The notes under the pieces are model-generated. The model saw nothing but the letters and a program-made list of their open reading frames with translations. It was not told where the DNA came from and made no database searches. From Halomonas rhizosphaerae (GTDB lineage Bacteria > Pseudomonadota > Gammaproteobacteria > Pseudomonadales > Halomonadaceae): 64,000 nucleotides of DNA. A program made the translations under genes and the position numbers. This document shows positions 41,645 through 51,354 of the stretch, piece by piece (positions within the stretch are counted from its first letter, which is position 1; every line of letters begins with the position of its first letter). Where the stretch lies: positions 124,001 to 188,000 of the forward strand of contig NZ_JASCQP010000028.1 in assembly GCF_030010555.1 (NCBI RefSeq), read 5' to 3'.

Positions 41645-42889
41645 ATGACGGTGGGGGCGCAAGAAGCGGATATGGATAGGGAAACCAGGCAGGCAGCGCC
41701 CGGTAAGGTGCTCAGCGTGACATCGACGGCACGCGAGCAACTGCGCGAAGCGGCGGGACAGCGGCAAGGCCTGCACATCACCGCCGGCAGCGATGCCGAG
41801 GCCGTGGCGCAGTGGCTCGACGAATATCGGGCCAGCCCCCGGACCCGGCGTGCCTATCGCCGCGAGGCGCAGCGCCTGCTGTTGTGGCTGGCGGAGCAGG
41901 GCAGGGGGCTCGATGCGCTGCGCCGGGAAGATCTGGACCGCTTCGAGGCCTTCCTGGCCGATCCGCGACCCGTCGAGCGCTGGATCGGGCCGGTGCGCCC
42001 GCGTCAGGACCCGCGCTGGCGTCCCTTCCGCGGGCCGCTGTCGCCCGCCAGCCGCCGTCAGAGCCTGGTGATCCTGCAGGGCATGTTCGCCTGGCTGGTG
42101 GAGGCAGGCTGGGTCCGCCACAATCCCTTCCGCCTGATGCGCGACAAGCGCCGCCGCCTGGACAACCGCCAGGGCGGCATCGAGCGCTACCTGGAGCGCC
42201 CCCTGTGGGACTGGCTATGGGACTGGCTGAACCGGCCGGGGGAGGAGGACGCCTCGCCCCGCCGGCGTTACGAGCTGACCCGGCGCCGTCTGGTCTTCGG
42301 CTTTGCCTACCTGCTGGCCCCGCGGATCAGCGAGATGAGTGCGGCGCGCATGAACGACTTCCAGCGCCGCGAGGGGCGATGGTGGTGGAGCGTGGTGGGG
42401 AAGGGCGGCAAGGTGGCGCGCATCCCGGTGCCGCCGGACATGATGGCGCTGCTGGCCGAGTGGCGCAGGACACTGGGCCTGTCGGCAGAACCGCCGCCGG
42501 ATGACGCCTCATCCCTGCTGCGAACACTGGATGGCTCCCGGGGACTGGGCGACAACCGTCTCTATCGGCTGGTCCGTGATGGCTTCCGGGAGTCGGCGGA
42601 GGCGCTCGAACGGGAGGCGGGCGACACGGCGCAGGCCGAGGTGGGGCGGCTGCGTCGGGCGTCACCGCACTGGCTTCGCCACACGGCCCTGACCCACCAG
42701 GCGCAGGCCGGGGTGGAGCTACGCTATCTGGCCGCGACGGCACGCCACTCGCGTCTCGACACCACGGCGCGCTACCTGCACGCCGAGGATGAGGAGTGGC
42801 ATCGCCAGCAGGCGTGTCATGGCCTGTGGGGCGAAGGGGCGAGGGCAGTGCTTGCCGATGATCGAGATGGCGGGCATGAGCCGTTATAA
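41645..42889 (+). CDS. Tyrosine recombinase (TnpS/phage integrase family)
   Basis: A 414-residue tyrosine recombinase. The N-terminal part (about 45-165) is a SAM-like core-binding domain (AQWLDEYRASPRTRRAYRREAQRLLLWLAEQG). The catalytic domain keeps all key residues: Arg227 (LAPRISEM), the beta-hairpin lysine near 253-256 (VGKGGKVARIPVP), His342 and Arg345 (SPHWLRHTALTH), His368 (ATARHSRLDTT) and the nucleophile Tyr377 (TTARYLH), so it should be active. It is longer than XerC/XerD (~300). The ATG is preceded by the AAGGAGC repeat array. Divergent from the KfrA/TnpT-like gene. No mobile-element ends or integration tRNA were found beside it. Confidence 0.85.
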   Translation: MTVGAQEADMDRETRQAAPGKVLSVTSTAREQLREAAGQRQGLHITAGSDAEAVAQWLDEYRASPRTRRAYRREAQRLLLWLAEQGRGLDALRREDLDRFEAFLADPRPVERWIGPVRPRQDPRWRPFRGPLSPASRRQSLVILQGMFAWLVEAGWVRHNPFRLMRDKRRRLDNRQGGIERYLERPLWDWLWDWLNRPGEEDASPRRRYELTRRRLVFGFAYLLAPRISEMSAARMNDFQRREGRWWWSVVGKGGKVARIPVPPDMMALLAEWRRTLGLSAEPPPDDASSLLRTLDGSRGLGDNRLYRLVRDGFRESAEALEREAGDTAQAEVGRLRRASPHWLRHTALTHQAQAGVELRYLAATARHSRLDTTARYLHAEDEEWHRQQACHGLWGEGARAVLADDRDGGHEPL

Positions 42890-44687: not shown

Positions 44688-45650
44688 TCAGGCCGTCTCG
44701 AGCAGCTCGCTGGAGCGGGCAAAATGATGCTGCGAGAAGACGACCCTTTCCTCGGGAGCGACACCCTCGGGCTGGCGTTCGATCAGGTCCAGCCGGGAGC
44801 GCAGCCCCTCGCCATTGGCCATCTGGATCGCCAGCCCCGGGCGGGCGTTGAGCTCCAGCAGCATGGGGCCATGGTCTCGGTCGAGCACCATGTCGGTGCC
44901 GAGATACCCGAGCCCTGTCATCTCGAAGCAGCCGGCGGCCAGGCGCAGCAACGTGGCCCAGTCGCTGATACGCAGGCTGGCGAGCTCGTGGCCGGTATCG
45001 GGATGGTCGTGACGCCTGCGGTCGAACTGTACCCCCCGGATCGCGGTGCCGCTGGCGATATCGATGCCCACGCCCACGGCTCCCTGGTGCAGGTTGGCCT
45101 TGCCATCCGAGGCGGCGGTGGAGAGGCGCATCATTGCCATCACCGGATAGCCCTTGAAGACGATGACCCGGATATCCGGCACCCCCTCATAGGTGTACTC
45201 GGAGAAGGATTCGTCGAAGTTGATCAGCGCCTCGATCAGCGCCACATCCGGGGAGCCCCCCAGCGAGTAGAGCCCGGAGAGGATGTTGGAGACATGGCGC
45301 TCCACGTCGCCAAGGGTCAGCTGGGCGCCGCTGGGCTTGACGTAGCGGTCGCCATCGATCCGCTCGATGACGAGGATGCCCTTGCCGCCGCTGCCCTTGG
45401 CCGGCTTGATCACGAACCCTTGATGGCCCACGAGCATGGCAAGGATATGCTTGACGCCGAACTGGGTGGTCACGGTGCCGATCAGCGCCGGCGTGGTGAT
45501 ACCGTATTCCTGGGCCAGCAGCTTGGTCTTGAGCTTGTCGTCCACCAGCGGGTAGAGCCGGCGATTGTTGTAGCGGCCGATGTAGCGGATGTTGCGCCGG
45601 TTCATGCCGATGATTCCCTTGGCATGCAGGCGGGCAGGGGTCGTCCACAT
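44688..45650 (-). CDS. RimK-related alpha-L-glutamate ligase-like ATP-grasp enzyme
   Basis: A 320-residue ATP-grasp ligase of the RimK-related group. Segments: NNRRLYPLVDDKLKTKLLAQEYGITTPALIG, GFVIKPAKGSGGKGILVI (nucleotide loop), IEALINFDESFSEYTYEGVPDIRVIVFKGYPVMAMMRLST and LGTDMVLDRDHGPMLLELNARPGLAIQMAN, with the Mg-binding Glu/Asn. These enzymes join an amino acid to a carboxylate at ATP cost; substrate unknown. It starts four bases after the gene for an inactive-transglutaminase/7TM protein, and a retropepsin-like protease gene lies upstream, the conserved trio described for this family. Confidence 0.82.
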   Translation of the reverse strand: MWTTPARLHAKGIIGMNRRNIRYIGRYNNRRLYPLVDDKLKTKLLAQEYGITTPALIGTVTTQFGVKHILAMLVGHQGFVIKPAKGSGGKGILVIERIDGDRYVKPSGAQLTLGDVERHVSNILSGLYSLGGSPDVALIEALINFDESFSEYTYEGVPDIRVIVFKGYPVMAMMRLSTAASDGKANLHQGAVGVGIDIASGTAIRGVQFDRRRHDHPDTGHELASLRISDWATLLRLAAGCFEMTGLGYLGTDMVLDRDHGPMLLELNARPGLAIQMANGEGLRSRLDLIERQPEGVAPEERVVFSQHHFARSSELLETA

Positions 45651-45654
45651 GGTG

Positions 45655-47160
45655 TCAGTCCTCCGTGACCGGCTTGAAGCGGCGCAGCTCGAGCAGGCGA
45701 TAGCCGGTGTAGTTGCCGAGCAGCAGGATCAGCGCCATCAGGATCAGCTGGACGCCGAGGAAGTTGAAGGTGATGTGGCGGACCCAGGGGTTGTTCATCG
45801 CCAGATAGGCCAGTACCGCGGTGATGAGACTGCCGCCGCCCTGGATCAGTACCTGCTTGGGGCCTTCCTCCTCCCAGAGGATCGACATCCGCTCGATGGT
45901 CCAGGAGAGGATGATCATCGGGAAGAAGGTGATGGTCAGGCCGGCATTGAGGCCGAAGCGGTAGGAGAGCACCGAGAACACCGAGATGATGGCGATGACC
46001 GTGATGATCACCGCCGTCACTCGCGCCACCAGCAGCAGGTTCAGGTAGGAGAGATAATTACGGATGACCAGTCCCACGGCCACCACGAGCAGGAACCCGA
46101 CCAGCCCGGTAACCAGGGTGGTCTGGATGAAGGCCAGCGCGATAAGCACGGGCATGAAGGTGCCCGAGGTCTTGATGCCGACCAGCACCCGGAGGATCAC
46201 GACCATCAGTGCGCCGATGGGGATCAGCAGGATGGTCTGGAACAACGCCTGATCCTCGAGCGGCAGGCTGTGAATCGAGAAGTTGAGCAGGGTGTCATCG
46301 GCTAGCTGGCTGCGCACCGCCGCCGCCGCCGGCTGGTTGCGGGAGAGCATCGAGAAACCGACCCGCGAGTCGCTGCCGCCCTGGACCTCGAGCACCGCCT
46401 GTCCGGCGGACTCCCAGAGGAGCAGGTTATCCGGGCGGCCTCGGGTGCCGGTACGCGGATCAAACAGCGCCCACTCCTGTTCATCGAAGACCTGGATCCA
46501 GGGCGTCAGGCTCTGCCGCCGGCGGCCATGGTCGAGCAGCAAGCCGCTGACCTCGCGGGCCGGTACGCCGGCCTGGTTGAGCAGGCGTACCAGCAGCGGT
46601 GTGCGGTCGAACTGGGTCAGCAGGAGGCGCGCATTTTCCCCCTGACGCTCCTCGGTGAAGTCAGTGATCAGCTCGCGTGCGAAGGTGTAGGGGTCGGAGC
46701 TGCGTGACCAGGCCCGCTCGATCACCTGGCTGGCCGCGGTGTCGTAGGGCGTTTCCCAGACGATGTCACGCCGCAGGGGAGGGGGTTCGATCTCCGGGCT
46801 CTTCGACTCCGGGGCGACCAGTGCCTGGACGCTGTAATAGAGCTGCTGGTCTCCCGTCGCCTCGCGCGTGGACCATTCTGCGCGGCGGCCGCCGTTCTCC
46901 TCGAGAAAGGCCAGCCCGTAGCCGGGCGAGGCAGTGTGTTCGGTCAGGATGCGATACCCCTGCTGGCTCGAGGGCAGCGCCATGTTGACCTTGGCCGAGC
47001 CGCCATCGGCGGTAAAGTTGACCTGGGCCTCGATCTCCCAGACCTGGCGCTGCTCGCCCGGTGTCCAGGGCACCTCGAACTGCACATGGCGGTGAATGCT
47101 CAGAGCGACACCGGCCACCAGCAGGAAGGCGACGATCAGGTAGAAGGGCAGTCGTGACAT
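45655..47160 (-). CDS. Inactive transglutaminase fused to seven transmembrane helices
   Basis: A 501-residue inner-membrane protein. After an N-terminal anchor (FYLIVAFLLVAGVALSI) comes a periplasmic transglutaminase-like region (about 130-270). Its pattern VRLLNQAGVPAREVSGLLLD...TPWIQVFDEQEWALFDPRTG keeps the fold, but the usual catalytic cysteine and the histidine before the tryptophan are missing, so it should be inactive. From about residue 312 there are seven hydrophobic helices. Known family ('transglutaminase-like, 7TM') always linked to the adjacent ATP-grasp ligase; function unproven. Confidence 0.83.
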   Translation of the reverse strand: MSRLPFYLIVAFLLVAGVALSIHRHVQFEVPWTPGEQRQVWEIEAQVNFTADGGSAKVNMALPSSQQGYRILTEHTASPGYGLAFLEENGGRRAEWSTREATGDQQLYYSVQALVAPESKSPEIEPPPLRRDIVWETPYDTAASQVIERAWSRSSDPYTFARELITDFTEERQGENARLLLTQFDRTPLLVRLLNQAGVPAREVSGLLLDHGRRRQSLTPWIQVFDEQEWALFDPRTGTRGRPDNLLLWESAGQAVLEVQGGSDSRVGFSMLSRNQPAAAAVRSQLADDTLLNFSIHSLPLEDQALFQTILLIPIGALMVVILRVLVGIKTSGTFMPVLIALAFIQTTLVTGLVGFLLVVAVGLVIRNYLSYLNLLLVARVTAVIITVIAIISVFSVLSYRFGLNAGLTITFFPMIILSWTIERMSILWEEEGPKQVLIQGGGSLITAVLAYLAMNNPWVRHITFNFLGVQLILMALILLLGNYTGYRLLELRRFKPVTED

Positions 47161-47362
47161 GGGTCTTCCTTGATGGGGCTTGAGTCAGGCGAAGGAACTT
47201 GGCTTTGTCCCAAAACTGGCTGCACTCGGCCATACGGCGTTACAAAATCGGCTCGAAGTACTCATTTACACCCTGCAAACTCGCGTGCGAGCCCAGTCCG
47301 TATCATCGCCGATGATTGTCTTGTCTTGCCGTCGCTCGCCGACATTTCAGACAAGCCCGACG

Positions 47363-48220
47363 TCACTCTTCGGTTTCGGCTTCGTCTTCATCGCGATCAG
47401 CGGCCTCGTCGGTGCCGGCTTCCTCTGCCGGACGCCCGCCCGGGAACTCTGGGCGATCATGAAGGTACTGCTCGGCCACGTCGATGATGGCGATGTCCAT
47501 CAGGAAACGACGACCCAGCAGTACCGGATGGTCCAGGTGGGTGCGGTCGTTGAGGGTGAACTGCACCGTCTCGCGCAGCGGCCCCAGGGTCATCAGCAGG
47601 CTGATCACTGGACGCGAATCCTCCCCGGAGGCCTGGATGATGCGCACCCGGCGTTCCACCGGGGCCTCGATCCATTCGTCACGCACGCTGTCGACCACGC
47701 TATCGGCTTCGTTGAGCCCAAGCTTGAAGCGGACCCAGTTCTCGCCGTCGCGCTCGAAGCGGGTAATCTCGGTAGCCGACAGCGACGAGGTGGTGGCCCC
47801 AGAGTCGATACGGGCCTTCAGGTAGGTGCCGACACCGGGCAAACCGATCCACTCGGTGCGACCCAGGATCTCCTTGTTGTCCAGGCGCGTCGGGCTGTCG
47901 CTGCACTGACTGGCCACCTGGGGCACGTCGTCATCGCGGTCGAGACGTGCCACCTCGCCACGTAGTTGCCGCAGCAAGCTGCCGACCTCACGAACGTCCG
48001 CCGACAGCGCCTGCTGCTGTTGCAGCTGCTGATCGAGCCGGCCCTGCTGAGCGGTCACGCAGCTGGAGGTGACGGCGCCTTCCAGCTGATCGAGTCGCGC
48101 CTGGAATTCTCCGCTGGTGACGAGCGGCGGCGGAGGCTCACGGTCGGGCAGCAGGGTGCAGCCGCTCAGCAGCAGGGTGGCAACGATCAGGGTGCTGGCA
48201 AACGGCAGGCAATGGCGCAT
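47363..48220 (-). CDS. Retropepsin-like/RimB-type ATP-dependent zinc protease family lipoprotein
   Basis: About 285 residues. A lipoprotein signal with lipobox LLLSGC near residue 19, then a glutamine-rich coiled coil (about 45-105), then the protease-like domain: ILGRTEWIGLPGVGTYLKARIDSGATTSSLSA, with the DSGA aspartyl-protease-type motif, and LGRRFLMDIAIIDVAEQYL. The C-terminal ~30 residues are acidic. This family (annotated ATP-dependent zinc protease, structurally retropepsin-like) accompanies the ligase and 7TM genes downstream. The start at 48220 was chosen for the lipoprotein signal; the ribosome-binding site is poor. There are 202 bases between it and the 7TM gene. Confidence 0.78.
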   Translation of the reverse strand: MRHCLPFASTLIVATLLLSGCTLLPDREPPPPLVTSGEFQARLDQLEGAVTSSCVTAQQGRLDQQLQQQQALSADVREVGSLLRQLRGEVARLDRDDDVPQVASQCSDSPTRLDNKEILGRTEWIGLPGVGTYLKARIDSGATTSSLSATEITRFERDGENWVRFKLGLNEADSVVDSVRDEWIEAPVERRVRIIQASGEDSRPVISLLMTLGPLRETVQFTLNDRTHLDHPVLLGRRFLMDIAIIDVAEQYLHDRPEFPGGRPAEEAGTDEAADRDEDEAETEE

Positions 48221-48873: not shown

Positions 48874-49416
48874 ATGTACAGGAGATGGCTTTTTCGCCTG
48901 GTCGTGCTGCTGCTCTCCCTGGGGCTGCTGGCCGGCTGCAGCAGCGTCGATATCGCGCGCTATGCAGGCACCACGCCGCGCCTCGACATCGGAGAATACT
49001 TCGACGGCAAGACTCGCGCCTGGGGCATGGTGCAGGACTACAGTGGGGAGGTGCAGCGCCGCTTCACCGTGGAGATCGACGGTCGGCTCGAGGGCGATAC
49101 CCTAACCCTGGACGAACGCTTCACCTATGACGACGGCGAGACCGACCGGCGCGTCTGGACCTTCGAGCGTCAGGGCGAGGATCGCTGGATCGGCCGAGCC
49201 AATGACGTCGAGGGCACGGTGGAGGCGCGCCAGGCCGGCCACGCCTTCACCATGCGCTACCGCCTGCCCGTCGAGGTCTCGGGACGCGAGATAACCTTCA
49301 CCCTGGACGACTGGATGTACCTGCAGCCCGACGGGCGGCTGATCAACCGCACCGCCATGCGCAAGTTCGGGGTCACTCTCGCCGAAATCACCATCGTCTT
49401 CGACCAGTCGCCCTGA
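48874..49416 (+). CDS. DUF3833 family lipoprotein
   Basis: A 180-residue predicted lipoprotein. The signal MYRRWLFRLVVLLLSLGLLAGC ends in lipobox LAGC, followed by SSVDIARYAGTTPRLDIGEYFDGKTRAWGMVQDYSGEVQRRF, the DUF3833 signature. A beta-rich body ends DWMYLQPDGRLINRTAMRKFGVTLAEITIVFDQ. Function unknown; likely periplasmic or outer-membrane attached. A strong terminator follows. Confidence 0.82.
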   Translation: MYRRWLFRLVVLLLSLGLLAGCSSVDIARYAGTTPRLDIGEYFDGKTRAWGMVQDYSGEVQRRFTVEIDGRLEGDTLTLDERFTYDDGETDRRVWTFERQGEDRWIGRANDVEGTVEARQAGHAFTMRYRLPVEVSGREITFTLDDWMYLQPDGRLINRTAMRKFGVTLAEITIVFDQSP

Positions 49417-49481: not shown

Positions 49482-49892
49482 TCAGATCGGCTTCTTGTCG
49501 TCGGCCTCGGCCGGCGCGTAGGAGCCATCTTCGCGGTGCACCTCGTTGCCGGTCAGGCCCGGCGTGAACACGCAGGCCAGGTGCATGGTCTTGCTGGCGC
49601 GCAGCAGGTGCTCGTCGTGCTGGTCGAGGATGTAGATGTCACCCGGCTTGATCGGCCAGATCTTGCCGTCGGCCAGGGTTTCCACCTCGCCCTCGCCTTC
49701 GATGCAGAAAACGGCCTCGAAGTGATGCTTGTAATGGATGTGGGTCTCGGTGCCTTCGTAGATGCGGGTAATATGGAAGGAGCAGTTGCCACCATCATCG
49801 GCCAGACTCAGGCGGGTGCTGTCCCAGTTGCCGTTCTCGGCCTTGACCAGGCGGTCGGTCTTGCGGGCGTCATCGAGATTGCGAACGATCAT
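49482..49892 (-). CDS. ectC: Ectoine synthase EctC
   Basis: A 136-residue cupin enzyme cyclising N-gamma-acetyl-diaminobutyrate to the compatible solute ectoine. The family sequence is unmistakable: [69 protein letters not shown], and [25 protein letters not shown] lies seven bases before the ATG. Last gene of ectABC; the 91-base gap to ectB contains a perfect hairpin. No ectD (hydroxylase) or ask_ect follows. Confidence 0.97.
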
Positions 49893-49919
49893 GAATGCTC
49901 TCCAATGGTATCAGTGACG

Positions 49920-49945
49920 GACCGGTCGGCCCCTGCCGACCGGTC
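49920..49945. other. Perfect hairpin between ectB and ectC
   Basis: GACCGGTCGGC (49920-49930) and its inverse (49935-49945) with a four-base loop. Without a T-run it is more likely an mRNA-stabilising or partially attenuating element than a terminator. Confidence 0.6.
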
Positions 49946-49983
49946 GATGACTGGGCCGCCCATGGGGCGACACCCTCAGACTA

Positions 49984-51354
<1,371 letters not shown>

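Follow-up and report, generated by a model that had tools for sequence, protein, structure and literature searches.

A Halomonas rlo operon and a candidate polyglutamate pathway

The rlo operon (rloA-rloB-rloC) was named in Pseudomonas aeruginosa in 2025, and structures of RloA were solved (PMC12239564). In vitro, P. aeruginosa RloA cleaves runs of 8 or 10 glutamates, not runs of six or fewer (PMC12239564). The operon has hypo-osmotic, cell-shape, biofilm and beta-lactam phenotypes in P. aeruginosa. In low salt, loss of rloB or rloC rescues the loss of the proteases, and the RloA variants R114A and R137A do not rescue (PMC12239564). Since rlo controls low-salt survival, cell shape and beta-lactam sensitivity in P. 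aeruginosa, the nature of its product matters.

We found a new member of this known system, the rlo operon of Halomonas rhizosphaerae. In the window (the whole stretch of 64,000 nucleotides analysed), the three genes are read on the minus strand from 48220 to 44688, in the order that defines rlo (Table 1). The position and single strand given in the initial annotation were verified, and all three products matched the expected families. That annotation treated the trio as known from comparative genomics only, a claim that probably goes back to Iyer et al. 2009, who are said to have described "sugar-transfer associated ATP-grasp" and inactive-transglutaminase systems by that approach. It is now outdated by a published name, structures, cleavage assays, phenotypes and suppression (PMC12239564).

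Table 1. Features of the Halomonas rlo locus (positions in the window)
Feature	Position	Strand	Description
rloA	47363..48220	-	lipoprotein retropepsin; LSGC lipobox, spacer, protease domain with IDSGA
rloA-rloB gap	47161..47362	-	202 bp, occupied by a dispersed repeat (~47201-47357)
rloB	45655..47160	-	N-terminal TM helix, transglutaminase-like domain and 7TM core
rloC	44688..45650	-	RimK-like ATP-grasp ligase

The core of the operon is conserved. rloB and rloC were neighbors in every locus examined (36/36), and rloA lay alongside in 28 of the 36. Among close relatives, rloA was directly upstream of rloB in 77 of 80 loci, scored by the pattern [ILVM]D[ST]GA; the other three, and 2 of 21 other RloA proteins, had no motif by this pattern and were left out. 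By eye, the two among the 21 read DTGI and DSGS. The gap between rloA and rloB is unusually long at this locus, as the median in 77 relatives is 38 bp and the maximum 120 bp. Among the 25 largest clusters listed, the partners beyond the trio were, outside the host's family, a TPR gene in a distant clade (f39, below), antisense-like open reading frames and three small sets.

RloC belongs to the ATP-grasp family expected of an rlo ligase. It scored 309 bits on PF14397 (cut-off 31) and 450 bits on TIGR02291 (cut-off 314), which bears out its annotation as a RimK-related ligase. Five residues (K39, K82, D253, E266 and N268) were common to all 27 RloC and 2 RimK sequences aligned. The branching order of the clades was not resolved in a tree of RloC. 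Membership in the RimK-type fold family might suggest that RloC is a redundant modifier of S6 or another RimK-type enzyme, unrelated to its neighbors, and the initial annotation had named an ordinary S6 modifier as the outcome that would count against it. However, RloC scored only 16.5 bits on the S6-ligase (RimK) model (cut-off 331), and a separate RimB-RimK pair is encoded on a different contig of this genome; the ligase of that pair reached 475 bits on the S6-ligase model. The invariable pairing of rloB with rloC and the reported lack of genetic interaction between rimB and rloA (PMC12239564) also speak against this idea, which is already contradicted and which we consider highly improbable.

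RloA is a lipoprotein with a retropepsin domain, as first annotated. It matched PF05618 with 126 bits (cut-off 27). From the start at 48220 it has 285 amino acids, and the export signal and the D-T/S-G-A motif expected of rlo were both found by pattern: a lipobox, LSGC, with Cys21, and IDSGA with the catalytic Asp139. The spacer between lipobox and protease domain is Gln-rich and, by eye, helix-like. Judging from the +2 residue, RloA is probably anchored on the outer membrane. In alignments to PDB 9g58/9g59, three basic residues of P. aeruginosa RloA had basic counterparts in Halomonas RloA: an Arg for K46, R203 for R114 and R226 for R137; the spacing in 9g58 gives the same numbers as PMC12239564. 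Together with both arginines, there is a basic residue two positions ahead of the catalytic Asp. Our counts of R114 and R137 counterparts in other RloA proteins are lower bounds, because the loose patterns used missed the second in 11/77 close relatives; in 9/19 others, one of the two escaped them.

Halomonas RloA differs from the soluble RloA subtype in that its protease domain contains no Cys and so no disulfide-forming pair. The same was true of all close relatives measured (77/77); in a further comparison of Cys content, 2 of 20 RloA were excluded for want of a motif match. The narrow NCBIfam models of P. aeruginosa type all scored below cut-off (RloA3, 118/210 bits; RloA2, 103/250; RloA, 78/280; RloB, 344/900), and we therefore do not assign Halomonas RloA and RloB as orthologues of those narrow types. 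The acidic C-terminal tail of RloA, which ends in EAETEE, was considered as an acceptor for polyglutamylation. We dropped this idea because the tails vary within the Halomonadaceae and the other RloA listed lack an acidic one of this kind.

RloB combines a transglutaminase-like domain without the catalytic Cys and His with a 7TM core, as expected of rlo. It scored 187 bits on PF14400 and 362 bits on PF14402 (cut-offs 25 each). In the alignment columns, Gln183 and Thr219 replace the transglutaminase Cys and His, and the Asp is retained. The term "inactive transglutaminase" thus holds for this protein; it is not universal, as one clade (f39) retains the Cys-His-Asp triad. An AlphaFold model of the ectodomain was well formed, with a transglutaminase/cysteine-protease fold, and its matches in a PDB fold search were three chains of 3isr, which is annotated as a putative cysteine protease (E 1.3e-10 at best). 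Models of the 7TM core had low confidence, so that the fold search supports the ectodomain alone; the core models were poor because the alignments held close relatives only (full-length sequences 75-93% identical to Halomonas RloB; mean column identity in the core 94%). No relatives of RloB were found in a scan of viral contigs.

The conserved residues of RloB lie in its membrane half. G328, G333, P337, P414, E423 and R424 of the 7TM core were invariant in 34/34 RloB, and all 17 invariant columns fell within the TM half, a count biased by two of the 34 having no ectodomain. The two genomes concerned retain the TM core and RloC alone. These findings speak against the notion that RloB is a sensor or anchor rather than a channel, its dead domain binding peptidoglycan or a peptide signal that RloC makes and RloA removes. 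Loss of the catalytic residues would suit a binding role, as would the well-modelled ectodomain fold, and epistasis alone does not require transport. On balance we think a sensor or anchor unlikely.

We compared the RloB core with PgsC/CapC. The poly-gamma-glutamate synthases PgsBCA/CapBCA, like rlo, pair an ATP-driven ligase with a small multi-pass membrane protein; PgsB is of the Mur-ligase type, where rlo has an ATP-grasp enzyme. A CapC profile scored higher against the RloB-core profile than against any of 107 membrane controls (107/107), with an hhalign probability of 17.5%, below formal significance. The match spans ~40 residues, with P 0.0014 in one comparison. A CapC alignment of five sequences gave probabilities of 0.4-4.3%, and the value rose to 17.5% once PgsC was added. 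Two of the 107 controls proved to be short RloB themselves, and removing them left 105. With the CapC profile, 34 single RloB were separated from these 105 with an AUC of 0.98 (reversed RloB, 0.47). All controls were single sequences, and the RloB are related by kinship. With PgsC alone, 22/107 controls matched or exceeded the RloB profile, and the AUC for single RloB was 0.82; a two-sequence profile of short RloB was outscored by 4/107. In 29/34 RloB, PgsC Pro34 aligns to Pro337 of the shared G-x4-G-x3-P motif. At an E of up to 10, the 34 RloB together matched 21 families, and PF14102 (CapC/PgsC) was not one of them. CapC relatives were found neither in the viral-contig scan nor on plasmids (tblastn, E 0.01). 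Taken together, these comparisons indicate that the RloB core may be a distant look-alike of PgsC/CapC, better than nearly all controls and below significance. In the class that includes f39, tandem-CapC genes and RloB each occurred in 5 of 78 genomes, with none shared; this exclusion is not evidence, because the expected overlap is 0.3.

The distant clade f39 (five genomes) has a different layout. Its RloB keeps an intact Cys-His-Asp triad, and a secreted retropepsin was not found in any of the five genomes. Overall, a secreted retropepsin was present in 13/13 genomes with a dead transglutaminase, 0/5 with an intact triad and 0/2 without the domain; completeness is 88% in two of the f39 genomes and contamination 9% in one of them, and the pattern counts as one event because it is confined to one clade. 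In 5/5 f39 genomes a TPR gene follows rloBC; its matches were generic, with best scores to PilW, PrsT and MamA. Where the contig continues (4/4), the next gene encodes a barrel-like protein of 392-403 amino acids from one family (40-41% identical to the first). Three of the four had no NCBIfam match and the fourth had a sub-cut-off match to EpsL (E 4e-6); to the eye, they look like outer-membrane barrels. In another pair of genomes (f45), a different conserved gene, also barrel-like, lies ahead of rloB; its two copies share 54% identity, and it had nothing above cut-off in model searches. Both sets of neighbors are compatible with export of a product, "secretion" here being read from the layout alone.

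Our preferred reading, to which we give a probability of about 50%, is that RloC synthesizes an oligo- or polyglutamate, which RloB transfers to the periplasm for trimming by RloA. In the cytoplasm, RloC would use ATP to build the chain, which could be free or attached to an acceptor. RloB would then carry the chain over the inner membrane with its 7TM core, and the dead transglutaminase domain would hold or present it in the periplasm. RloA would cut chains of at least ~8 Glu, as P. aeruginosa RloA does in vitro; the key residues are retained in Halomonas. Without RloA, a polyanion would build up and cells would fail in low salt. Loss of rloB or rloC suppresses this defect in P. aeruginosa, probably because nothing then accumulates. 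The family matches, the published genetics, the cleavage of polyglutamate and the retention of R114 and R137 all fit this reading. Both the sequence and the published scheme agree with the annotated compartments: ligase in the cytoplasm, 7TM protein in the membrane and protease outside. On the other side, mutants lacking only rloB or only rloC also have mild shape and ampicillin defects (PMC12239564), so the product would have a use of its own.

The glutamates might instead form a reversible tag, like that of RimK/RimB on S6, and not a bulk polymer. In the cytoplasm, RloC would polyglutamylate a specific acceptor (a protein, lipid or cell-wall precursor); RloB would flip or present the conjugate, and RloA would de-glutamylate it once in the periplasm. 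This option, also raised in PMC12239564, draws on the invariants that RloC has in common with RimK and on the kinship of RloA with RimB, and the cell-shape and beta-lactam phenotypes suggest the cell wall. However, among the periplasmic and extracellular proteins of P. aeruginosa none was found with 8 encoded Glu, and the only acidic candidate resisted cleavage (PMC12239564). The barrel-like neighbors in the two other clades would also go a little better with an exported product. We regard such a tag as possible, although doubtful.

An extension of the polyglutamate reading can be offered tentatively, and we would not expect it to hold in full. RloB-RloC may be a second, ATP-grasp-driven polyglutamate synthase-exporter in Gram-negatives, with a membrane part distantly akin to PgsC/CapC. 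The f39 clade would still secrete the polymer through the TPR and barrel proteins, and an active enzyme of the transglutaminase fold would process it. Where RloA is present, this enzyme would have died, a retropepsin would have taken over, and a periplasmic polyanion would need trimming in low salt. If a polymer is made, Gram-negatives have their own periplasmic or secreted polyglutamate, the puzzling rlo genetics are explained, and the TM core with the ligase alone is a naturally simplified system for reconstitution. Related bacteria suggest routes to the product, and the question of its nature is now testable. New here, partly by interpretation, are the comparative conservation of rloB-rloC, the intact triad of f39, the tentative resemblance to PgsC/CapC and the Cys-less lipoprotein RloA.

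Among known systems, PgsBCA/CapBCA may resemble rlo in the sequence of PgsC and the RloB core. They differ in that RloB does not match PF14102 and that the peptide substrates cleaved by RloA were encoded and therefore alpha-linked. RimB-RimK, the polyglutamylation system of ribosomal S6, also combines a retropepsin with an ATP-grasp ligase; unlike rlo, it includes neither a membrane partner nor an export signal, and it is a separate pair in the same genome. The closest system is P. aeruginosa rlo. Halomonas RloA is a longer lipoprotein with a Cys-less protease domain, whereas the solved enzymes have a disulfide pair; its motif is DSGA, compared with DTG-A; and the host genome has one further exported retropepsin besides RloA, compared with two in P. 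aeruginosa. The two operons are alike in gene order and domains, with an exported retropepsin, a dead transglutaminase-7TM protein and an ATP-grasp ligase.

We found an rlo operon of three genes on the minus strand at 44688-48220, where the initial annotation had placed the trio. Curated Pfam matches were far above cut-offs for RloA (PF05618), RloB (PF14400 and PF14402) and RloC (PF14397), and likewise for NCBIfam TIGR02291 with RloC, which supports a RimK-related ligase. The ATP-grasp residues of RloC are intact in alignment. The transglutaminase domain of RloB has Gln and Thr at the Cys and His columns and retains the Asp; loss of the catalytic Cys and His had been read correctly. So had the lipoprotein with a DSGA protease motif: RloA begins with a lipoprotein signal (LSGC) and carries IDSGA as its catalytic motif. 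The window proteins also matched the NCBIfam models RloA, RloA2, RloA3 and RloB, below those narrow cut-offs. The host is a Halomonas, as its RloB shares 97% identity with the H. ventosae protein (best among 80 loci returned). The initial observation was correct; the operon belongs to a known kind, its only new feature being the lipoprotein protease, and its interest lies in comparative clues to its product.

Positions of the rlo genes in the window and of the tandem CapC/PgsC protein in two other loci
Feature	Locus	Position	Strand
rloA	window	48220-47363	minus
rloB	window	47160-45655	minus
rloC	window	45650-44688	minus
Tandem CapC/PgsC protein	L114	7487-10726	
Tandem CapC/PgsC protein	L115	4686-7937	

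Several features surround the operon. The rloA-rloB gap (202 bp) is longer than in all 77 relatives measured. A dispersed repeat lies there (47201-47357), with 4 further genome copies (75-78% identical), and is absent from 6/6 close relatives aligned. Next to rloA, in divergent orientation, is a DUF3833 gene (48874-49416) whose product begins like a lipoprotein. Ectoine synthase and a second ORF, presumably ectoine aminotransferase, also adjoin the operon (49482-51249); ectoine synthase is near rlo in 5/36 loci, every one in the host family. A tyrosine recombinase related to XerC lies at 41645-42889 (65 of 335 bits, far below the XerC cut-off), and 6 host-family loci carry homologues of it in this neighbourhood.

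The host genome encodes three PF05618 proteins, including RloA. The second, on another contig, has a hydrophobic, signal-like N-terminus. The third is of RimB type (RimB is its best model, at 116 bits, below the cut-off of 200), and its adjoining ligase, at 475 bits, clears the cut-off of the S6-ligase model. With the same model RloC reaches 16.5 bits against a cut-off of 331. This score and the separate RimB-type/S6-ligase pair contradict the reading of RloC as an ordinary S6-type modifier, which the initial annotation had set against its own.

The Rlo names originate from work on P. aeruginosa (PMC12239564, mBio 2025). According to that paper, growth without salt in the medium requires three redundant exported retropepsins. 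Deletion of rloB or rloC in the retropepsin mutant fully restores this growth and restores other defects in part; single rloB or rloC mutants have mild defects in shape and with ampicillin. RloA counteracts something dependent on RloB and RloC. RloA cleaves polyglutamate, in runs of 8 or 10 Glu and not of 6 or fewer, rescue is lost with R114A or R137A, and the authors found no genome-encoded substrate. Hence the initial annotation was right that the product is not established, but the system has by now been studied beyond the comparative genomics that it named. In a Shewanella vesiculosa transposon study (PMC12096838), vesicle overproduction is tied to an inactive transglutaminase with seven membrane-spanning helices.

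We found three architectures among relatives. PF14402 is present in 70/101 genomes of the host family and 65/398 of the host phylum. In a set of 36 loci, 20 of them picked as divergent, rloB-rloC is intact in all 36 and rloA adjoins in 28. The other eight are G290 (a genome with an exported retropepsin elsewhere), five of a distant clade, f39, and two of a group, f45, whose RloB is the TM core only. The Cys-His-Asp triad is complete in 5/5 f39 RloB; neither its Cys nor its His occurs in any of the 27 other RloB that have the domain. PF05618 went unmatched in four of the five f39 genomes. The fifth encodes a single such protein, with no signal, RimB as best model and an adjoining ligase over the S6 cut-off. 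The sole f45 retropepsin is likewise RimB-type, has no signal and adjoins RimK. Since f39 has the triad and no secreted retropepsin was found there, whereas 13/13 dead-transglutaminase genomes examined encode a retropepsin whose N-terminus is hydrophobic or bears a lipobox (export judged from hydropathy and pattern), the sequences read as one periplasmic processing enzyme exchanged for another. The pattern is one event on the tree because f39 forms a single clade (support 100/99; the program warned of long branches, and the branching order of clades is not fixed).

In f39, a TPR gene with generic matches comes after rloBC (5/5) and then, in 4/4 loci where the contig continues, a member of one family of 392-403 aa proteins that by eye appear to be outer-membrane barrels. 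One matched EpsL below cut-off (E 4e-6), and three matched no NCBIfam model. A different conserved barrel-like gene, 54% identical across both genomes and with no model match over a cut-off, precedes f45 rloB. In one genome (L095, 5674-9922) rloB-rloC has a rimB-rimK pair as its immediate neighbour, the two being separated by a barrel-like gene. L147, a MAG contig labelled Rhodospirillaceae whose RloB is 81% identical to Halomonas RloB, is probably mis-binned. The plasmid collection includes an Aeromonas caviae record of 4.9 Mb, NZ_AP026896.1, that encodes RloB and is probably a chromosome entered there in error.

The polyglutamate contacts of RloA were mapped by alignment to a PDB structure and by spacing from the catalytic Asp, the latter because chain 9g58 shows the expected residue at 8/8 positions numbered in PMC12239564. 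R114 and R137 are retained in the window RloA (R203 and R226), K46 is replaced by Arg, and the R92 position is non-basic. These retained contacts, the fixed rloBC pairing, the intact ATP-grasp residues and the barrel-like genes conserved near rloBC in two distant clades are consistent with a model in which RloC would make a glutamate chain, RloB would move it, and untrimmed periplasmic polyanion would damage cells in low salt. The main alternative has the glutamate chain attached to an acceptor as a conjugate and is otherwise the same.

We compared the RloB membrane core with PgsC/CapC (PF14102), which its motif G-x4-G-x3-P (G328, G333, P337) resembles by eye. An HMM-to-sequence search of 34 RloB with PF14102 gave no match at E up to 10. 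The CapC profile scored the RloB profile above 107/107 membrane controls (P 0.0014, probability 17.5%; 0.4-4.3% with a thinner first CapC profile). Single RloB (34) were separated from 105 controls with an AUC of 0.98 (reversed RloB, 0.47). The CapC proline aligned to P337 in 29/34 RloB; in the remaining five the same region aligned to the second half of CapC. With PgsC alone, 22/107 controls equalled or exceeded the RloB profile, and the AUC for single RloB was 0.82. Fold comparison failed because predicted models of the core were poor. A literature search, with most subscription journals outside it, returned no paper linking the families. The profile signal is small and consistent, and common descent is worth testing, not something to take as shown. 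Five f39-family genomes encode a protein of ~1080 aa in which a tandem pair of CapC/PgsC domains is joined to a large, unassigned C-terminal region (one copy cut short).

The residue after the lipid Cys bears on lipoprotein membrane placement, and non-Asp points to the outer membrane. Our close-relative set comprised 80 loci (79 labelled as Halomonadaceae genera, one Rhodospirillaceae), in 77 of which a pattern yielded RloA. The lipobox pattern occurs in 74/77 and DSGA in 72/77, and Cys is absent from the protease domain in 77/77. The +2 residue is not Asp in 74/74 lipobox RloA, which suggests that Halomonad RloA sits at the outer membrane. Among 20 further RloA, domain Cys could be counted in 18. 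The 11 of these with the lipobox pattern carry at most one Cys there; the seven that lack it carry two, except for one that carries none. From these counts, the published disulfide seems to belong to a soluble RloA subtype. P. aeruginosa RloA has the disulfide, whereas Halomonas RloA is a lipoprotein with no Cys in its protease domain.
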